Shown in pieces: positions 560 through 63,905 of a stretch of DNA of 64,000 nt (position 1 is its first letter; the number at the start of each line of letters is the position of its first letter). The position numbers and the translations under genes were made by a program. The notes below the pieces were generated by a model, which worked only from the letters and a program-made list of their open reading frames with translations, did no database searches and was not told where the DNA came from. This DNA comes from a virus: IMG/VR virus record IMGVR_UViG_3300027896_000023, positions 20,166 through 84,165 of that record. One strand, given 5' to 3'.

Positions 560-890
560 TACGTCAAAAAAATTTTATAAAGGCATCGATCACGCCCATC
601 GATTTTACGTTCAACAACAAAATCTCAAGCAGTGTACAACACCAACAACAAACAAAACAGGCAGACAACAACAAACAACAACAAAGGCGCCCCAACCAGA
701 ACCCGCAAGGTTCTCCAAAGAGAACCAAAACCCCCAAACACACACACCCCAAACAAAGTGCCATGTATCTTATGTGATTTTGGCTTTATTTGACTGTTTG
801 ATTTTTGTTTATTGGGTGAACTGTTGGATTTTTGCGCGCGCTAGATTTTTGTTTATTGGTTGTTTTTTTATGGTTTTTGTGGTTATTATA
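560..890. other. Non-coding stretch switching from AC-rich to GT-rich
   Basis: No convincing gene is present between 339 and about 930. The + strand is strongly A/C-rich from about 610 to 765 (CAACAAACAAC-type runs, then CCCCAAACACACACACCCC) and turns T/G-rich from about 770 to 890 (TTTGTTTATTGG-type runs). The switch lies between a leftward gene and the rightward RNA/gene block, so the non-template strand is GT-rich on both sides. A second locus of the same design is at 10425-10560, and both share a GAACCAAACCCCCAA-like segment. GCGCGCGC occurs at about 834. Confidence 0.5.
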
Positions 891-910
891 ATGTTATATT
901 ATTTTAAAGG
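890..910 (+). promoter_or_regulatory. Candidate archaeal promoter (TATA box) before the structured RNA
   Basis: An AT-rich segment, TATATTATTTTAAAGG, resembles an archaeal TATA box and would place a transcription start near 930, just before the inverted repeat at 933-969 and the structured region at 1041-1748. This is a match by eye only. Confidence 0.35.
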
Positions 911-932
911 CTAATTTAGGCTTATTTTAACG

Positions 933-1040: not shown

Positions 1041-1748
1041 ACCAGCCTTAAAGGCTTGGTGAACGGAACAGCACCGTTTAATCAACTGCCAAACATCCCA
1101 ATACCATTACGGGAACGGATGGATGCTAAACTGAATGGCAAGGTCTACATGGTTAAACGGTGAAATAAAAATCTGTGGTGCTTCATCAAAAGATTTAGGA
1201 CGGTTGACGATTGCCTATCGTACCTTAACATATAGCTCCTGCTAGGTGTGTTGCCTCCAGATTAAGCTGGACGGTGCTAGTTAACCTGATGTACAAATAA
1301 GGGTTAATTTGAGAGACTGAGACAACAAAAAATCCGCTAATTATGAGTCCCAACTTTTACGGTTGCCTGCGGTATGTTAAGGAAAAACTGCGCAGAAATG
1401 GCAAAAGACTGATGCCAAAGGAACTTCAATGTTTCAATAAACCGCCCTAAATCGAGTAGGCAATCGGGACGGGCTAGCACCGTAACCCAACAACATAACT
1501 GCAAGTGAAACACGTACATAAATTTGAAAGGTAAATTGCAATAAACCGAGTATGGACACCCGCAAGATAGTCACGAAAGGGAGATTTACCGATTAAAGTT
1601 AAAACAGTTATGGCTTGGTAACGGTGCACCCGCACTACTGAAATTCTACAACACTTGCGTTATGGCTTAACAAGTCATGGCGCAGACACACACACGCAGG
1701 CTAATACTCGCCTGCCGACCGCAAGGTCGTACCCCTAGATCTTTTTTC
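1041..1748 (+). ncRNA. Large structured non-coding RNA candidate (about 700 nt)
   Basis: No credible ORF lies here, but many exact complementary segments do. Pairings found by eye: 1041-1060 hairpin; 1072-1081 with 1153-1162 (10 bp), enclosing 1087-1091/1136-1140 and 1094-1098/1121-1125; 1169-1174/1191-1196; 1208-1217/1457-1466 (10 bp), enclosing 1223-1232/1373-1382 (10 bp); 1281-1286/1302-1307; 1399-1403/1413-1417; 1494-1507/1652-1664 (13 bp with one bulge), enclosing 1530-1536/1584-1590; 1696-1701/1710-1715; and 1716-1720/1725-1729 capped by GCAA. The segment 1271-1280 matches 1474-1483 over 10 bp and would form a pseudoknot. A T6 run at 1742-1747 follows the last hairpin. The size and density recall the phage-encoded GOLLD and ROOL RNAs, but I recognise no known family and no intron core. 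Confidence 0.6.
1696..1747 (+). terminator. Two tandem hairpins and T6: 3' end of the structured RNA
   Basis: GCAGGC/GCCTGC (1696-1701/1710-1715) is followed at once by CGACC-GCAA-GGTCG (1716-1729, a GNRA tetraloop hairpin) and, 12 nt later, six T residues. This would end the upstream RNA before the gene at 1808, or leave read-through into the rightward operon. Confidence 0.5.
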
Positions 1749-1807: not shown

Positions 1808-2197
1808 ATGTCAACCAGTATTGAACGACTTTTAGATAGAAACGCCGATAAAATCTACTATCACCCTCGCACAGGCGAGAAGATGTCAACCTGCACCTGT
1901 GGAGACAAGGTACATTCAATGCCACCAATCTCCAACCTGCACACGAACGGATGCCCACGCACTACGTACCACCGAATGGTCAACGCCCAGTGGATAGGCG
2001 ACACGCCGATTCCGACAGGGCAACTCAAGACATTCTGGGGAGAACGTAAGCATGGATACGTCAGCAAGCACCAACACGCACAGCATGGCGCAGGCAGATT
2101 CCTACCTCCGCAGATGCCAGAACGCAAAGTGAGGATACTCTGCAGACACATAGACCGCGCAATCAAAGAGACCAAGACCACTGTACAAGTTGCCTAA
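1808..2197 (+). CDS. Hypothetical protein, 129 aa, Cys/His-rich
   Basis: First protein gene of the rightward block. The start is ATG 1808 because AGGAGG at 1795-1800 sits at the right distance; the frame stays open further upstream without an SD. The peptide has scattered Cys and His (CTCGDK, NGCPRTTYH, KHQHAQHGAG, RILCRH) that could bind metal, and a basic, Gln-rich C-terminus. No family recognised. The final TVQVA codons lie on a degenerate copy of the dispersed word. Confidence 0.7.
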   Translation: MSTSIERLLDRNADKIYYHPRTGEKMSTCTCGDKVHSMPPISNLHTNGCPRTTYHRMVNAQWIGDTPIPTGQLKTFWGERKHGYVSKHQHAQHGAGRFLPPQMPERKVRILCRHIDRAIKETKTTVQVA

Positions 2198-3181: not shown

Positions 3182-3303
3182 TCTCCGTTTCTTTGGAGAC
3201 AAACCATGTTTAGCAGCGAAGGGTTACACAACGGCTGCACCTGTAGCTTCCACAATTGACAGGCCCATGGCGATGTAACCTATAAAAATTGGAGGAAAAA
3301 TCT

Positions 3304-3656: not shown

Positions 3657-5372
3657 ATGACAGCTTCAGATATAACCGGCGCAAGCAACAACTGGCTTGT
3701 CGAAGATGCAATCCGAAGACGTGCACAGTGGACCTGCAGCCCAATCAAAGTAACTGAAGACAAGAAACGCATCGACCAACTCATAGACAGCGCAGCAACA
3801 GGCGGCCAAGCATTACTCCTTGGACAAGTCAAAGGATACCGCAAGATCTTAGAGTGGAATCTCCAACGCAATGAACTAAAAGAAATCAGCAAGCCAGGCA
3901 GAGAAATCATAAGAGTACCAGTCGCAGATCAAGACCAGCCAGTAATACAATTGATCGACAAGGAACTACATAACACGAGTCCATTAGGATCCGACGGCTT
4001 ACCAACACAACCGCAGTCAGCACTTGTAATCATCCACAACGTAATGACTAAACCGCAGGCAGATGCAATCGCTAATTGGTTAGTGGCATGGAGTAAAGAC
4101 AACAGCTTATTCGTCAACCAAGGAACAGTCTATACTTTCACTACAGACGAATCATTGTTCATTGAACCAGTGCGACGCGCATGCAACGTCCAGTATATAC
4201 CAACAGGATCAGTAGAGGAAATCCGTGCGCAGATACAAAACCTCGTTGACAAAATCAACAAGAACAACAGGGAAATGCGGCTACGAGTAGACGAACAGGA
4301 AGTCCAAGCAGCTAAAGGATTAGATCTCACACAGACAGTCACATCATATCTCTATGGCCTATCAATCTCAAAGACAACGCCGAAACGATGTGGAGTTGAA
4401 CCCTTCACAGAGATGAAGATTCAACAGTTGAAGACTATCGGATTGAACTTGAAGACACCAGAGATTGGCCCCGACGACTTAGGCGGATACCAAAGTCTCA
4501 AAGCAGAAATCAACTTCATCGCATCGCTAGTGCAAGATCCAGCGAAGACAGCTCATTATGGCCTATCATTGCCAAGAGGATTCTTGCTGGATGGCCCACC
4601 TGGAACCGGCAAGACAAGGATCGCTGAAGTATTAGCTTGGATATTGAAGATGCCGTTTGTGAAGCTGGAGAACAACAACTTGTACAAAGGAATCGTTGGA
4701 GAGTCAGAAGCAACTGTCAACAAGATCTTCCGCGCATTAGAAGCCCTAAGCCCACTGGTGCTGTTCATAGATGAAGCAGATGCAGTGTTTCCACGCAGAG
4801 ACAAACAGGTCTCTACAGATTCAGGTGTAGGACGACGTGTATTCAACGACATGCTGGATAAACTGGCAAGTCCAAAGAGAGGCTACCTTGTGATGATGGC
4901 TACCAATCTCGTAGAAGACATAGATGAAGCAGCAATCAGACCTGGAAGAATTGGCGCATGTTACTACGTTCCATATCCCGATATGGCAGCGAGACAACAG
5001 ATATTCCAAGTGCAATGCACACGTCTGCATCATTACTTGATGGATCCACAGATCGACTACAGCTATCTTGCAAAGCAATCATGTATGATGAGTGGCGCTG
5101 AAATAGAGAAGTGGTGCGAACTTGCATCCCAACAAGCATTGAGACAAAACAGCGAACCAGTAACACAAGGGCACTTCGAAGACGTAGAAGAACAAGTCAC
5201 AGTTAACATCGACGAACGCATCGCAGACATGCGTAAGAAAATCGAAGTACGCAAACACATCATGAACTTCAACGTACCACAGATGGATCGTGACATCCAA
5301 GGATTAATGGCGGAGATCACAGGCAGACAAGGCAGCAGCATCGACACCTTCACACAAAATCTAGGAAAATAA
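3657..5372 (+). CDS. AAA+ ATPase, Ycf46-like
   Basis: About 571 residues. The C-terminal AAA+ module has Walker A GPPGTGKT (about residues 313-320), Walker B LVLFIDEADAVF (about 366-377), sensor 1 VMMATN and an RPGRIG arginine-finger segment. The N-terminal 290 residues form a degenerate AAA-like domain (LVIIHNVM...) followed by AAKGLDLTQTV, the layout of cyanobacterial, plastid and phage Ycf46-type ATPases. It is followed by DUF1257 and DUF2997 genes, partners that recur with this ATPase elsewhere. An upstream in-frame GTG at 3648 is an alternative start. Likely a protein-remodelling or regulatory ATPase; the exact substrate is unknown. Confidence 0.88.
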   Translation: MTASDITGASNNWLVEDAIRRRAQWTCSPIKVTEDKKRIDQLIDSAATGGQALLLGQVKGYRKILEWNLQRNELKEISKPGREIIRVPVADQDQPVIQLIDKELHNTSPLGSDGLPTQPQSALVIIHNVMTKPQADAIANWLVAWSKDNSLFVNQGTVYTFTTDESLFIEPVRRACNVQYIPTGSVEEIRAQIQNLVDKINKNNREMRLRVDEQEVQAAKGLDLTQTVTSYLYGLSISKTTPKRCGVEPFTEMKIQQLKTIGLNLKTPEIGPDDLGGYQSLKAEINFIASLVQDPAKTAHYGLSLPRGFLLDGPPGTGKTRIAEVLAWILKMPFVKLENNNLYKGIVGESEATVNKIFRALEALSPLVLFIDEADAVFPRRDKQVSTDSGVGRRVFNDMLDKLASPKRGYLVMMATNLVEDIDEAAIRPGRIGACYYVPYPDMAARQQIFQVQCTRLHHYLMDPQIDYSYLAKQSCMMSGAEIEKWCELASQQALRQNSEPVTQGHFEDVEEQVTVNIDERIADMRKKIEVRKHIMNFNVPQMDRDIQGLMAEITGRQGSSIDTFTQNLGK

Positions 5373-61794: not shown

Positions 61795-63905
61795 GGCGAA
61801 ACATAAAGGCACTGTATACCAGTGTAGTGACTGCCTTGTGCCCCAAATTGATTTGTGTTGGAAATTCTTGTAGGCACACCTGTTCCCTGATAAGCATACA
61901 CGTATGTACCAGTAGTGTAGTTCTCGTGGTATCGATAGCCTGTGCCAAAATAAAGAGTGTTGCCTGCTATAGCCATAGAAATAATTGCTTCAACATTTGA
62001 CGTAATTGTTACAAATGAAGATCCGTCGTATGATAGGAGTTTTCCCAAAGAAGGTGCTTCGGAGTTCCCTTGTGTTGCGCCGAGGTATAGTTTATTGTTT
62101 AGAACACCCAATGTGTATATCCAGTAAACATCGGTATTAGTTACAACTGAATCAAAATTTATTCCGTTTGTTGAATATCGAAGCTTTTGGTAACATGCGG
62201 CGTAAAGTTTGTTATTGTATACTTTGAGGTCATTAACACCGTAACTACTATTGTAGGTTCCGTCATATACCCATCCTTCATTGACGGATCTTCCGAATCT
62301 TTCACGGCTATAGTCAGCAAGATTTATCCAATTAGGAAACAGCGTACTTGTTGAGACAGCCCCGATTACGCCTAAAAATGATGACGCGGTAAATACAGGT
62401 GTCCATGTGGTTCCGCCGTCCAAACGCCACAGAGTTTTGCTTCTTGCAGCGTACAGTTTATCCTGGTATATTACGAAGGCATGTGTTTGATTTTCGTCAT
62501 TAGTAAGCATAGTCCATGTAAAATCGTTGTTGTATCTATAAGTGCCATAAGCGCCGCCAGCATACAAAACACCATGATACTGCACTATAGCAAAGATAGC
62601 GCCTGATGGTTCAATGCCTTCTGCAGGCCCTAATCTTTGCCAAGAAGTCCCATTGTTGTATCTCCAGACGTTGCCAGGTATAGAAGTGCCAGCGTACAAT
62701 ACCGGGGCAACTGGATTTATTATTACAGGATCGCCAACATAAACCACTGGTGCTTGAGAATTAATAGCTATACCACTTTTAGGCGGATAAGCACGGACAT
62801 TTAATCTTTGGGTTCCCACGGTTACGTGTTTTGACGTGTCAACATTAGAAAGGGCTACTGGTTTGTTTGGGTCGCCGTTTATGTAAGCTACTAAAAGGTT
62901 GTCTCCAGGTGTTGCGCCTAAACCTTCGACGCAGGGTACATTAGTTAGTCTCTGGCGTGGAGTAGTTACTGTAGCTTTGTTGGTTGTGCTGAGGCGTCCG
63001 GCAAACATTGGGGCATTAGCGTTACCGTTTTGGTGAACGAGAACCACTTGGTCACCTTCATTTAAAACTACACCTGTAGTCAATGGGTAATCTATGTAGG
63101 TAGGAGACTCAGATGTTCCTCCTTTGTAAACTCGTACAGCAACTCTTTGGTATGGTTGAGATGGCTTTTCAATGTGGAAGCTGCTGGGAAGGTTCTTGAG
63201 GCTTTGTTTGCCCCGAAAGAAACTTGAGTGTAAATCAACAGACCTTCTGTTTCGGACAGTGAATTTCTCAGATAGACGTGCTGAGAGTGAGGTACTGCGG
63301 AAGAAGACTTGTGGGTTTGGGCATTGTTCAAAGTAGTAAAAAAGTCCATCGCATGGAACTGCGTAGACTACTCCCGAACCAGTGTTATATGTTGTTTTAA
63401 GCGCAAGATTGTATCCGGCGCCAGTTCCCAGAAGTTGATAGCCTGAACCGGAAAAGCCTGTGCCATCCCAGGCTGTGGTGAGACTAGAGAATTCCGTCCA
63501 GAAAGGATCGCCACTCATGCCTGATGCAGGAACCATTGTGGCTACTCCGCTGATTTGTCCTGTCCACCTGAAGTTGAAAGCTGAGGTGAAGTCAAGTCCG
63601 TGTGGTGCTGGGTTGCCGTAATCGGTGTCGCCGCCGACGATCAGCATGTTGCCATGTTGAACCCAGCTGACTATACTGGATATTTCAGCTGAGGATAAAA
63701 CATGATGCTGCAGTCCACTTACTACAAAAATATTGTATGGCGCTAACAAGGCATCGTTTATGATCGGGTACTGCCCGCCATAAGCGCCGCCGTAAGTGGT
63801 GTTGATGCCTAACGCATTCATTCTTGTAACTACATTGTAAGGCGGTCGAAATGGTGCAGTATCAGATTGATAAATGCCTATGTATAATACCTTACCTGCA
63901 ACCAT
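61791..63905 (-). CDS. Structural/adhesin protein, 704 aa
   Basis: Residues 1-190 have a Rossmann-like, GATase/ThuA-type arrangement (VLYIGIYQSDTAPF, NIFVVSGLQHHVLSSAEISS, VQHGNMLIVGGDTDYG). Then three fibre-repeat units (TSLSARLSEKFTVRNRRS, VDLHSSFFRGKQSLKNLPSS). Residues about 260-400 are a beta domain with PVALSNVDTSKHVT. The rest is a beta-propeller (GVLYAGGAYGTYRYNNDFTW, NKLYAACYQKLRYSTNGINF, NKLYLGATQGN). CTACACCTGTAG at 63068-63079. Possibly a tail-tip or glycan-recognition protein. Confidence 0.65.
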   Translation of the reverse strand: MVAGKVLYIGIYQSDTAPFRPPYNVVTRMNALGINTTYGGAYGGQYPIINDALLAPYNIFVVSGLQHHVLSSAEISSIVSWVQHGNMLIVGGDTDYGNPAPHGLDFTSAFNFRWTGQISGVATMVPASGMSGDPFWTEFSSLTTAWDGTGFSGSGYQLLGTGAGYNLALKTTYNTGSGVVYAVPCDGLFYYFEQCPNPQVFFRSTSLSARLSEKFTVRNRRSVDLHSSFFRGKQSLKNLPSSFHIEKPSQPYQRVAVRVYKGGTSESPTYIDYPLTTGVVLNEGDQVVLVHQNGNANAPMFAGRLSTTNKATVTTPRQRLTNVPCVEGLGATPGDNLLVAYINGDPNKPVALSNVDTSKHVTVGTQRLNVRAYPPKSGIAINSQAPVVYVGDPVIINPVAPVLYAGTSIPGNVWRYNNGTSWQRLGPAEGIEPSGAIFAIVQYHGVLYAGGAYGTYRYNNDFTWTMLTNDENQTHAFVIYQDKLYAARSKTLWRLDGGTTWTPVFTASSFLGVIGAVSTSTLFPNWINLADYSRERFGRSVNEGWVYDGTYNSSYGVNDLKVYNNKLYAACYQKLRYSTNGINFDSVVTNTDVYWIYTLGVLNNKLYLGATQGNSEAPSLGKLLSYDGSSFVTITSNVEAIISMAIAGNTLYFGTGYRYHENYTTGTYVYAYQGTGVPTRISNTNQFGAQGSHYTGIQCLYVSP

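Follow-up and report, generated by a model that had tools for sequence, protein, structure and literature searches.

The best-supported reading of positions 1041-1748 of the DNA analysed here is that they encode a real viral noncoding RNA whose class is unassigned. The DNA, referred to as the window, is a 64,000-nucleotide stretch comprising positions 20166-84165 of an 84,165-base virus record (IMGVR_UViG_3300027896_000023, hereafter G000). On balance, we judge it probable that an archaeal tailed virus makes from them a functional structured RNA, which acts in trans and forms a class of its own relative to the families in Rfam. The original prediction of an undescribed archaeal RNA class is sustained insofar as folding energy, strand preference, position and a parallel RNA in related viruses favour the presence of a large structured RNA in a virus whose host is probably an archaeon; the new class itself is a plausible proposal drawn from a single sequence.

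Genomic setting and predicted fold of the RNA

The terminase, portal, head protease and major capsid protein (MCP) genes of G000 lie outside the window. The MCP is 26-30% identical to the MCPs of Haloarcula tailed viruses and of a Methanofastidiosa virus, and G000 is therefore a tailed virus, with archaea as its most likely host. Genes in the window to the left of about position 340 run mostly leftward, and those to the right of 1808 run rightward. The RNA lies in the gap between them, as the opening element of the rightward gene block. A search over the whole of G000 found no tRNA genes, in the window or in the rest of the record. The features of the locus are listed below; the entries at 860-930, 933-969 and 1021-1038 are read from the sequence.

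860-930, plus strand: A/T-rich DNA containing TATA-like sequences such as ttatattattttaaagg (about 893-909); putative archaeal promoter of the RNA
933-969, no strand assigned: long inverted repeat TGTTACGCATAACAC...GTGTATGCGTAACA; candidate operator or 5' hairpin
1021-1038, no strand assigned: perfect 18-bp alternating GC palindrome GGGCGCGCGCGCGCGCCC bordering the RNA (z -2.7 for 1017-1042)
1041-1748, plus strand: the whole predicted structured noncoding RNA; minimum free energy (MFE) -209 kcal/mol, z -4.6 to -5.0
1041-1187, plus strand: 5' domain, with a 13-bp helix 1072-1084/1150-1162 (p 0.99) and a hairpin at 1044-1056; z -2.8
1189-1199/1734-1744, plus strand: 11-bp helix closing the main body (p 0.97)
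1208-1218/1456-1466, plus strand: 11-bp helix closing the middle domain (p 0.70)
1271-1280, plus strand: ACGGTGCTAG, able to pair with 1474-1483 as an alternative or between molecules (forced fold -205.2 kcal/mol)
1467-1635, plus strand: stacked 3' domain, z -3.7; four helices
1470-1473/1629-1632, 1477-1483/1621-1627, 1494-1501/1605-1612 and 1530-1537/1583-1590, plus strand: the helices of the 3' domain (p 0.97-1.00)
1655-1685, plus strand: 14-bp hairpin TTGCGTTATGGCTT/AAGTCATGGCGCAG (p 0.94)
1696-1715, plus strand: hairpin GCAGGC-TAATACTC-GCCTGC (p 1.00)
1716-1729, plus strand: GCAA-tetraloop hairpin CGACC-GCAA-GGTCG (p 0.98)
1742-1747, plus strand: T6 run at the 3' end, likely an archaeal-type terminator
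1808-2197, plus strand: gene for a 129-aa protein, function unassigned (the neighbour gene); homologues adjoin a large RNA in the related viruses G002 and G010

The general test for a structured noncoding RNA is a folding energy beyond that of dinucleotide shuffles together with a strand preference, and 1041-1748 has both. Its plus strand gives a z score of -4.99 against 20 shuffles and of -4.61 against 100, none of which folded as low (0/100), while the minus strand reaches only -1.5 to -1.7. A large structured RNA had been predicted here, with an energy no better than shuffled sequence named as the result that would count against it; the RNA beats its shuffles, on the plus strand only. Among 70 plus-strand windows of 708 nt sampled along G000 it folds best (z -4.8), against a background with a mean z of -0.13 and a standard deviation of 1.26, in which the next non-overlapping window stands at -2.65. 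It is also the only clearly significant fold among the intergenic stretches of G000 of at least 250 nt. Exact Watson-Crick helices of at least 10 bp number four, where 0.20 are expected from shuffles and five had been counted in the original prediction. With G-U pairs allowed, the MFE structure holds helices of 13, 11, 11 and 14 bp. The unpaired bases have the same composition as in shuffles, and A-rich loops therefore carry no weight as evidence for the RNA.

The main body encloses the middle domain, the stacked 3' domain and three 3' hairpins. Three of the four sections are stable on their own (z -2.8 for 1041-1187, -3.7 for 1467-1635 and -5.6 for 1636-1735); the middle section, 1186-1470, is weak and not clearly above chance (z -1.5). 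The GCAA-capped hairpin and the T6 tail of the original prediction are both present, the latter as one of six runs of at least six T residues on the plus strand of window positions 1-31000. An apparent internal duplication of AGCACCGT domains was dropped (p=0.07).

A pseudoknot between 1271-1280 and 1474-1483 had also been proposed. The 10-bp complementarity exists, but its 3' arm is occupied by a more stable nested helix, in which 1477-1483 pairs with 1621-1627 (p=0.99), and forcing the proposed pairing costs 3.8 kcal/mol (-205.2 versus -209.0). The two segments would thus form an alternative pairing and not a pseudoknot atop the fold. They may serve an alternative conformation or pairing between molecules.

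The neighbour gene and the RNAs of related viruses

A capsid-based search recovered G002, a colinear virus of 84,303 bases whose capsid protein is 75% identical to that of G000, and G001, a fragment. The neighbour gene has homologues in G002 and in a third virus, G010. Searches of IMG/VR and GTDB genomes with the neighbour and structural proteins, which relied on short conserved peptides and may miss records very close to G000, returned only G001, G002, G010 and MCP relatives at about 33%. A PDB search with the 129-aa neighbour protein found no relative, and its AlphaFold model has a pLDDT of 35.

Both G002 and G010 carry a large RNA at this locus:

L015:1946-2527 (G002) and L034:5435-6016 (G010), gene-block strand: large intercistronic RNA, 582 nt; z -6.0 (G002)

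In G002 this stretch directly follows the neighbour-gene homologue, holds no convincing gene and folds equally well on both strands. The two RNAs are 95% identical to each other. In windows along the alignment, the RNA is 92-97% identical and the preceding gene 88-90%, while the gene after the RNA has 93-95% over its initial 200 nt. The leader ranges from 36% to 90%, with most values under 80%. These relatives do retain a conserved large RNA next to the neighbour gene. Substitutions are rarer in the paired part of the fold (13 of 352 positions) than in the unpaired part (24 of 235), and at 95% identity the alignment contains no compensatory changes. Single-base insertions and deletions occur in it, which argues against a coding role. 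Taken as a whole, the comparison supports the view that viruses of this kind keep large RNAs at the locus of the neighbour gene.

The G002/G010 RNA resembles that of G000 in that it belongs to a related virus, adjoins a homologous gene, lies on the gene-block strand, is of similar size and folds strongly. It differs in lying on the other side of the gene, and no similarity is detectable by sequence or by covariance model. The models R1 and R2, built on its 5' and 3' parts, did not score above chance level in the window, one built on the 3' domain of the G000 RNA matched only itself, and local alignment of the G000 and G002 RNAs was no better than alignment of shuffles (p=0.92). A homology proposed by eye, based on a 5' hairpin with a UUAAA/UAAAA loop and a 3' loop with AAUACUCG, is unsupported by these models and alignments. 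The G002 RNA is therefore a parallel and not a proven homologue.

Several other structured elements were observed in these genomes. Intergenic candidates for HDV-like ribozymes lie at L015:3185-3257 and 4147-4204 in G002 and at L034:6821-6905 in G010; none was found in G000. They have the double-pseudoknot plan of such ribozymes (P1, P2, P3 and a catalytic C in J4/2) and score 21.5-23.1 bits in Rfam, below the cut-offs. The G002 copies were also recovered by an independent descriptor scan, and the G010 copy has one P1 mismatch. The spacer at 3220-3296 of the window (plus strand) resembles a SAM/SAH riboswitch (RF01727, 19.7 bits, E 0.11, cut-off 40), with a CACAACGGCU core and a GGTTACA/TGTAACC helix; its CTTCCA could pair with the ribosome-binding site TGGAGG. 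A hairpin-rich spacer at 2580-2730, with complementary GACTCA/TGAGTC, reaches z -2.9 (plus) and -3.8 (minus) in 200-nt windows, and no Rfam family matches it above the cut-off. In G000, a noncoding stretch of 899 nt (L004:16125-17023) ahead of the gene for the small terminase holds many inverted repeats at a z of only -1.5. Besides its large RNA, G002 has strong noncoding structure at L014:12930-13310, where perfect hairpins stand in a row beside tRNA genes, some of which apparently bear introns; with the tRNA genes included, the region (62922-63802 of G002) has a z of about -6.4. The tRNAs of G002 lie about 4 kb from its large RNA.

Known RNA families and alternative explanations

An Infernal search against Rfam had been suggested as a check, and no sequence resemblance to GOLLD or ROOL had been seen. 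Rfam 15 gave zero matches at the gathering threshold, either in the window or in the 20 kb at the start of the genome, and no plausible weak match to the RNA at E up to 10 for 500-2300. Weak matches to RUF4 and mir-70 lie upstream of the RNA or are due to chance; group I introns, RNase P and other known RNAs were set aside, having no Rfam match. Comparison by blastn with phages and plasmids gave no match, and no homologue of the RNA was found in related viral contigs. An 18-mer shared with one contig lies inside a phage gene and is a chance match.

GOLLD and ROOL are phage RNAs that often occur near tRNA islands and form nanocages (PMC12286853). The cage of GOLLD is a closed 14-mer made of RNA only, and that of ROOL a multimeric nanocage with conserved kissing loops; the two are mutually unrelated, yet both form cages (PMC12286853). 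The G000 RNA shares with GOLLD (RF02032) its similar size, multi-domain form and viral origin as a large noncoding RNA, and with ROOL (RF03087) a complex fold with possible pseudoknots in a large structured phage RNA. At E values up to 10, the GOLLD model matched nothing in G000, G002 or G010. The ROOL model gave no match at the gathering score, nor any at E values up to 10 in G000 and its relatives, in a search run without a positive control. The G000 RNA further differs from both in lacking a tRNA island, and from GOLLD in its probably archaeal host. Of the GOLLD/ROOL likeness first proposed, size and viral origin stand; that the RNA is itself a GOLLD or ROOL RNA is not supported. A length of several hundred nucleotides, an ornate fold and the lack of an ORF are also seen in OLE and further large bacterial RNAs of Rfam; to these the G000 RNA has no match at the gathering score and no plausible weak one. 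By analogy, it could be a strict counterpart of GOLLD and ROOL, a multimeric RNA-only cage and hence a special case of the trans-acting RNA favoured here. Its size and its origin in a virus would fit, as would the multi-domain fold, the complementary segments able to pair between molecules and the formation of cages by two unrelated RNAs. Given the unmatched Rfam models, the ROOL search having had no positive control, and no tRNA in any part of G000, we consider such a cage unlikely.

The main rival to an RNA acting in trans is a long structured cis-acting 5' leader, in which the alternative pairing of 1474-1483 would decide between a stop at the T6 run and read-through into the gene at 1808 and the rest of the block. 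The block's first gene follows immediately after the RNA, the T6 run is 60 nt ahead of the start codon, the two pairings are mutually exclusive and 3.8 kcal/mol apart, and other spacers resemble cis elements (the SAM/SAH-like one of this block and the HDV-like ribozymes of relatives). However, 700 nt is far beyond the usual length of a leader, and no canonical terminator/antiterminator pair is apparent. Because the large RNA of G002 sits after the neighbour gene and not before it, a fixed leader role for that gene is not common to both viruses. We regard a leader as a real but distinctly less probable explanation than a trans-acting RNA.

Two further explanations dispense with an RNA of this extent. 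The inverted repeats might act as DNA, as one component of an origin of replication or of a partition site, with the RNA fold a by-product. The RNA does adjoin a region (600-1040) in the leftward/rightward gap with A/T-rich DNA (including a T7 run at 863), the inverted repeat, for which 200-nt windows reach z -6.7, the 18-bp GC palindrome and a switch from C/A-rich to G/T-rich composition. This switch occurs at window positions 600-900 in G000 and likewise in relatives (L015:660-1150), and its composition suggests a possible replication origin or divergent promoter region. Yet a DNA hairpin site should fold alike on both strands, where z is here -4.6 on the plus and -1.7 on the minus strand, and the domains of the RNA are long-range and nested. 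Given this strand specificity, and with the origin-like features located upstream of 1041, we rate an origin-type DNA element very unlikely. The stretch had also been described as free of ORFs, whereas a 57-codon ORF (990-1163) covers its first 120 nt, with a codon score of 0.07 bits per codon, inside the range of true genes. A protein-coding 5' part followed by chance structure or gene remnants is nonetheless very improbable: nearby non-coding ORFs score alike, the ORF has no homologue in G001 or G002, and the main body 1186-1748, which excludes the overlapped part, holds a z of -4.67 by itself.

Proposed function and implications

For the trans-acting RNA, a promoter in the A/T-rich stretch at about 860-930 would start transcription rightward, making the RNA the first element of the rightward block, and the T6 run at 1742-1747 would end it, at least partly. 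By the computed fold, the transcript would form the 5' domain and, behind it, the main body with its closing long-range helix 1189-1199/1734-1744. It may then act during infection as a stable scaffold, alone or with protein, and pairing of 1474-1483 with either 1621-1627 or 1271-1280 could give a second conformation or join molecules.

More broadly, a fixed position beside one conserved small gene may, in archaeal tailed viruses, be occupied by large ornate RNAs, exchanged or diverged beyond recognition among relatives and serving as scaffolds or self-assembling particles, as an independent counterpart of GOLLD and ROOL. We offer this generalization as a speculation with a rather low probability. 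The two RNAs described here are defined predicted transcripts, of 708 and 582 nt, and are open to tests of assembly, partners and expression. In the literature consulted, the large ornate RNAs GOLLD, ROOL and OLE are all bacterial or from bacterial phages. If true, the finding of a large structured RNA in a probably archaeal virus, while two relatives have at this locus a second one with no detectable similarity to it and with conservation equal to or above that of genes, would suggest that big viral RNAs have had several origins.
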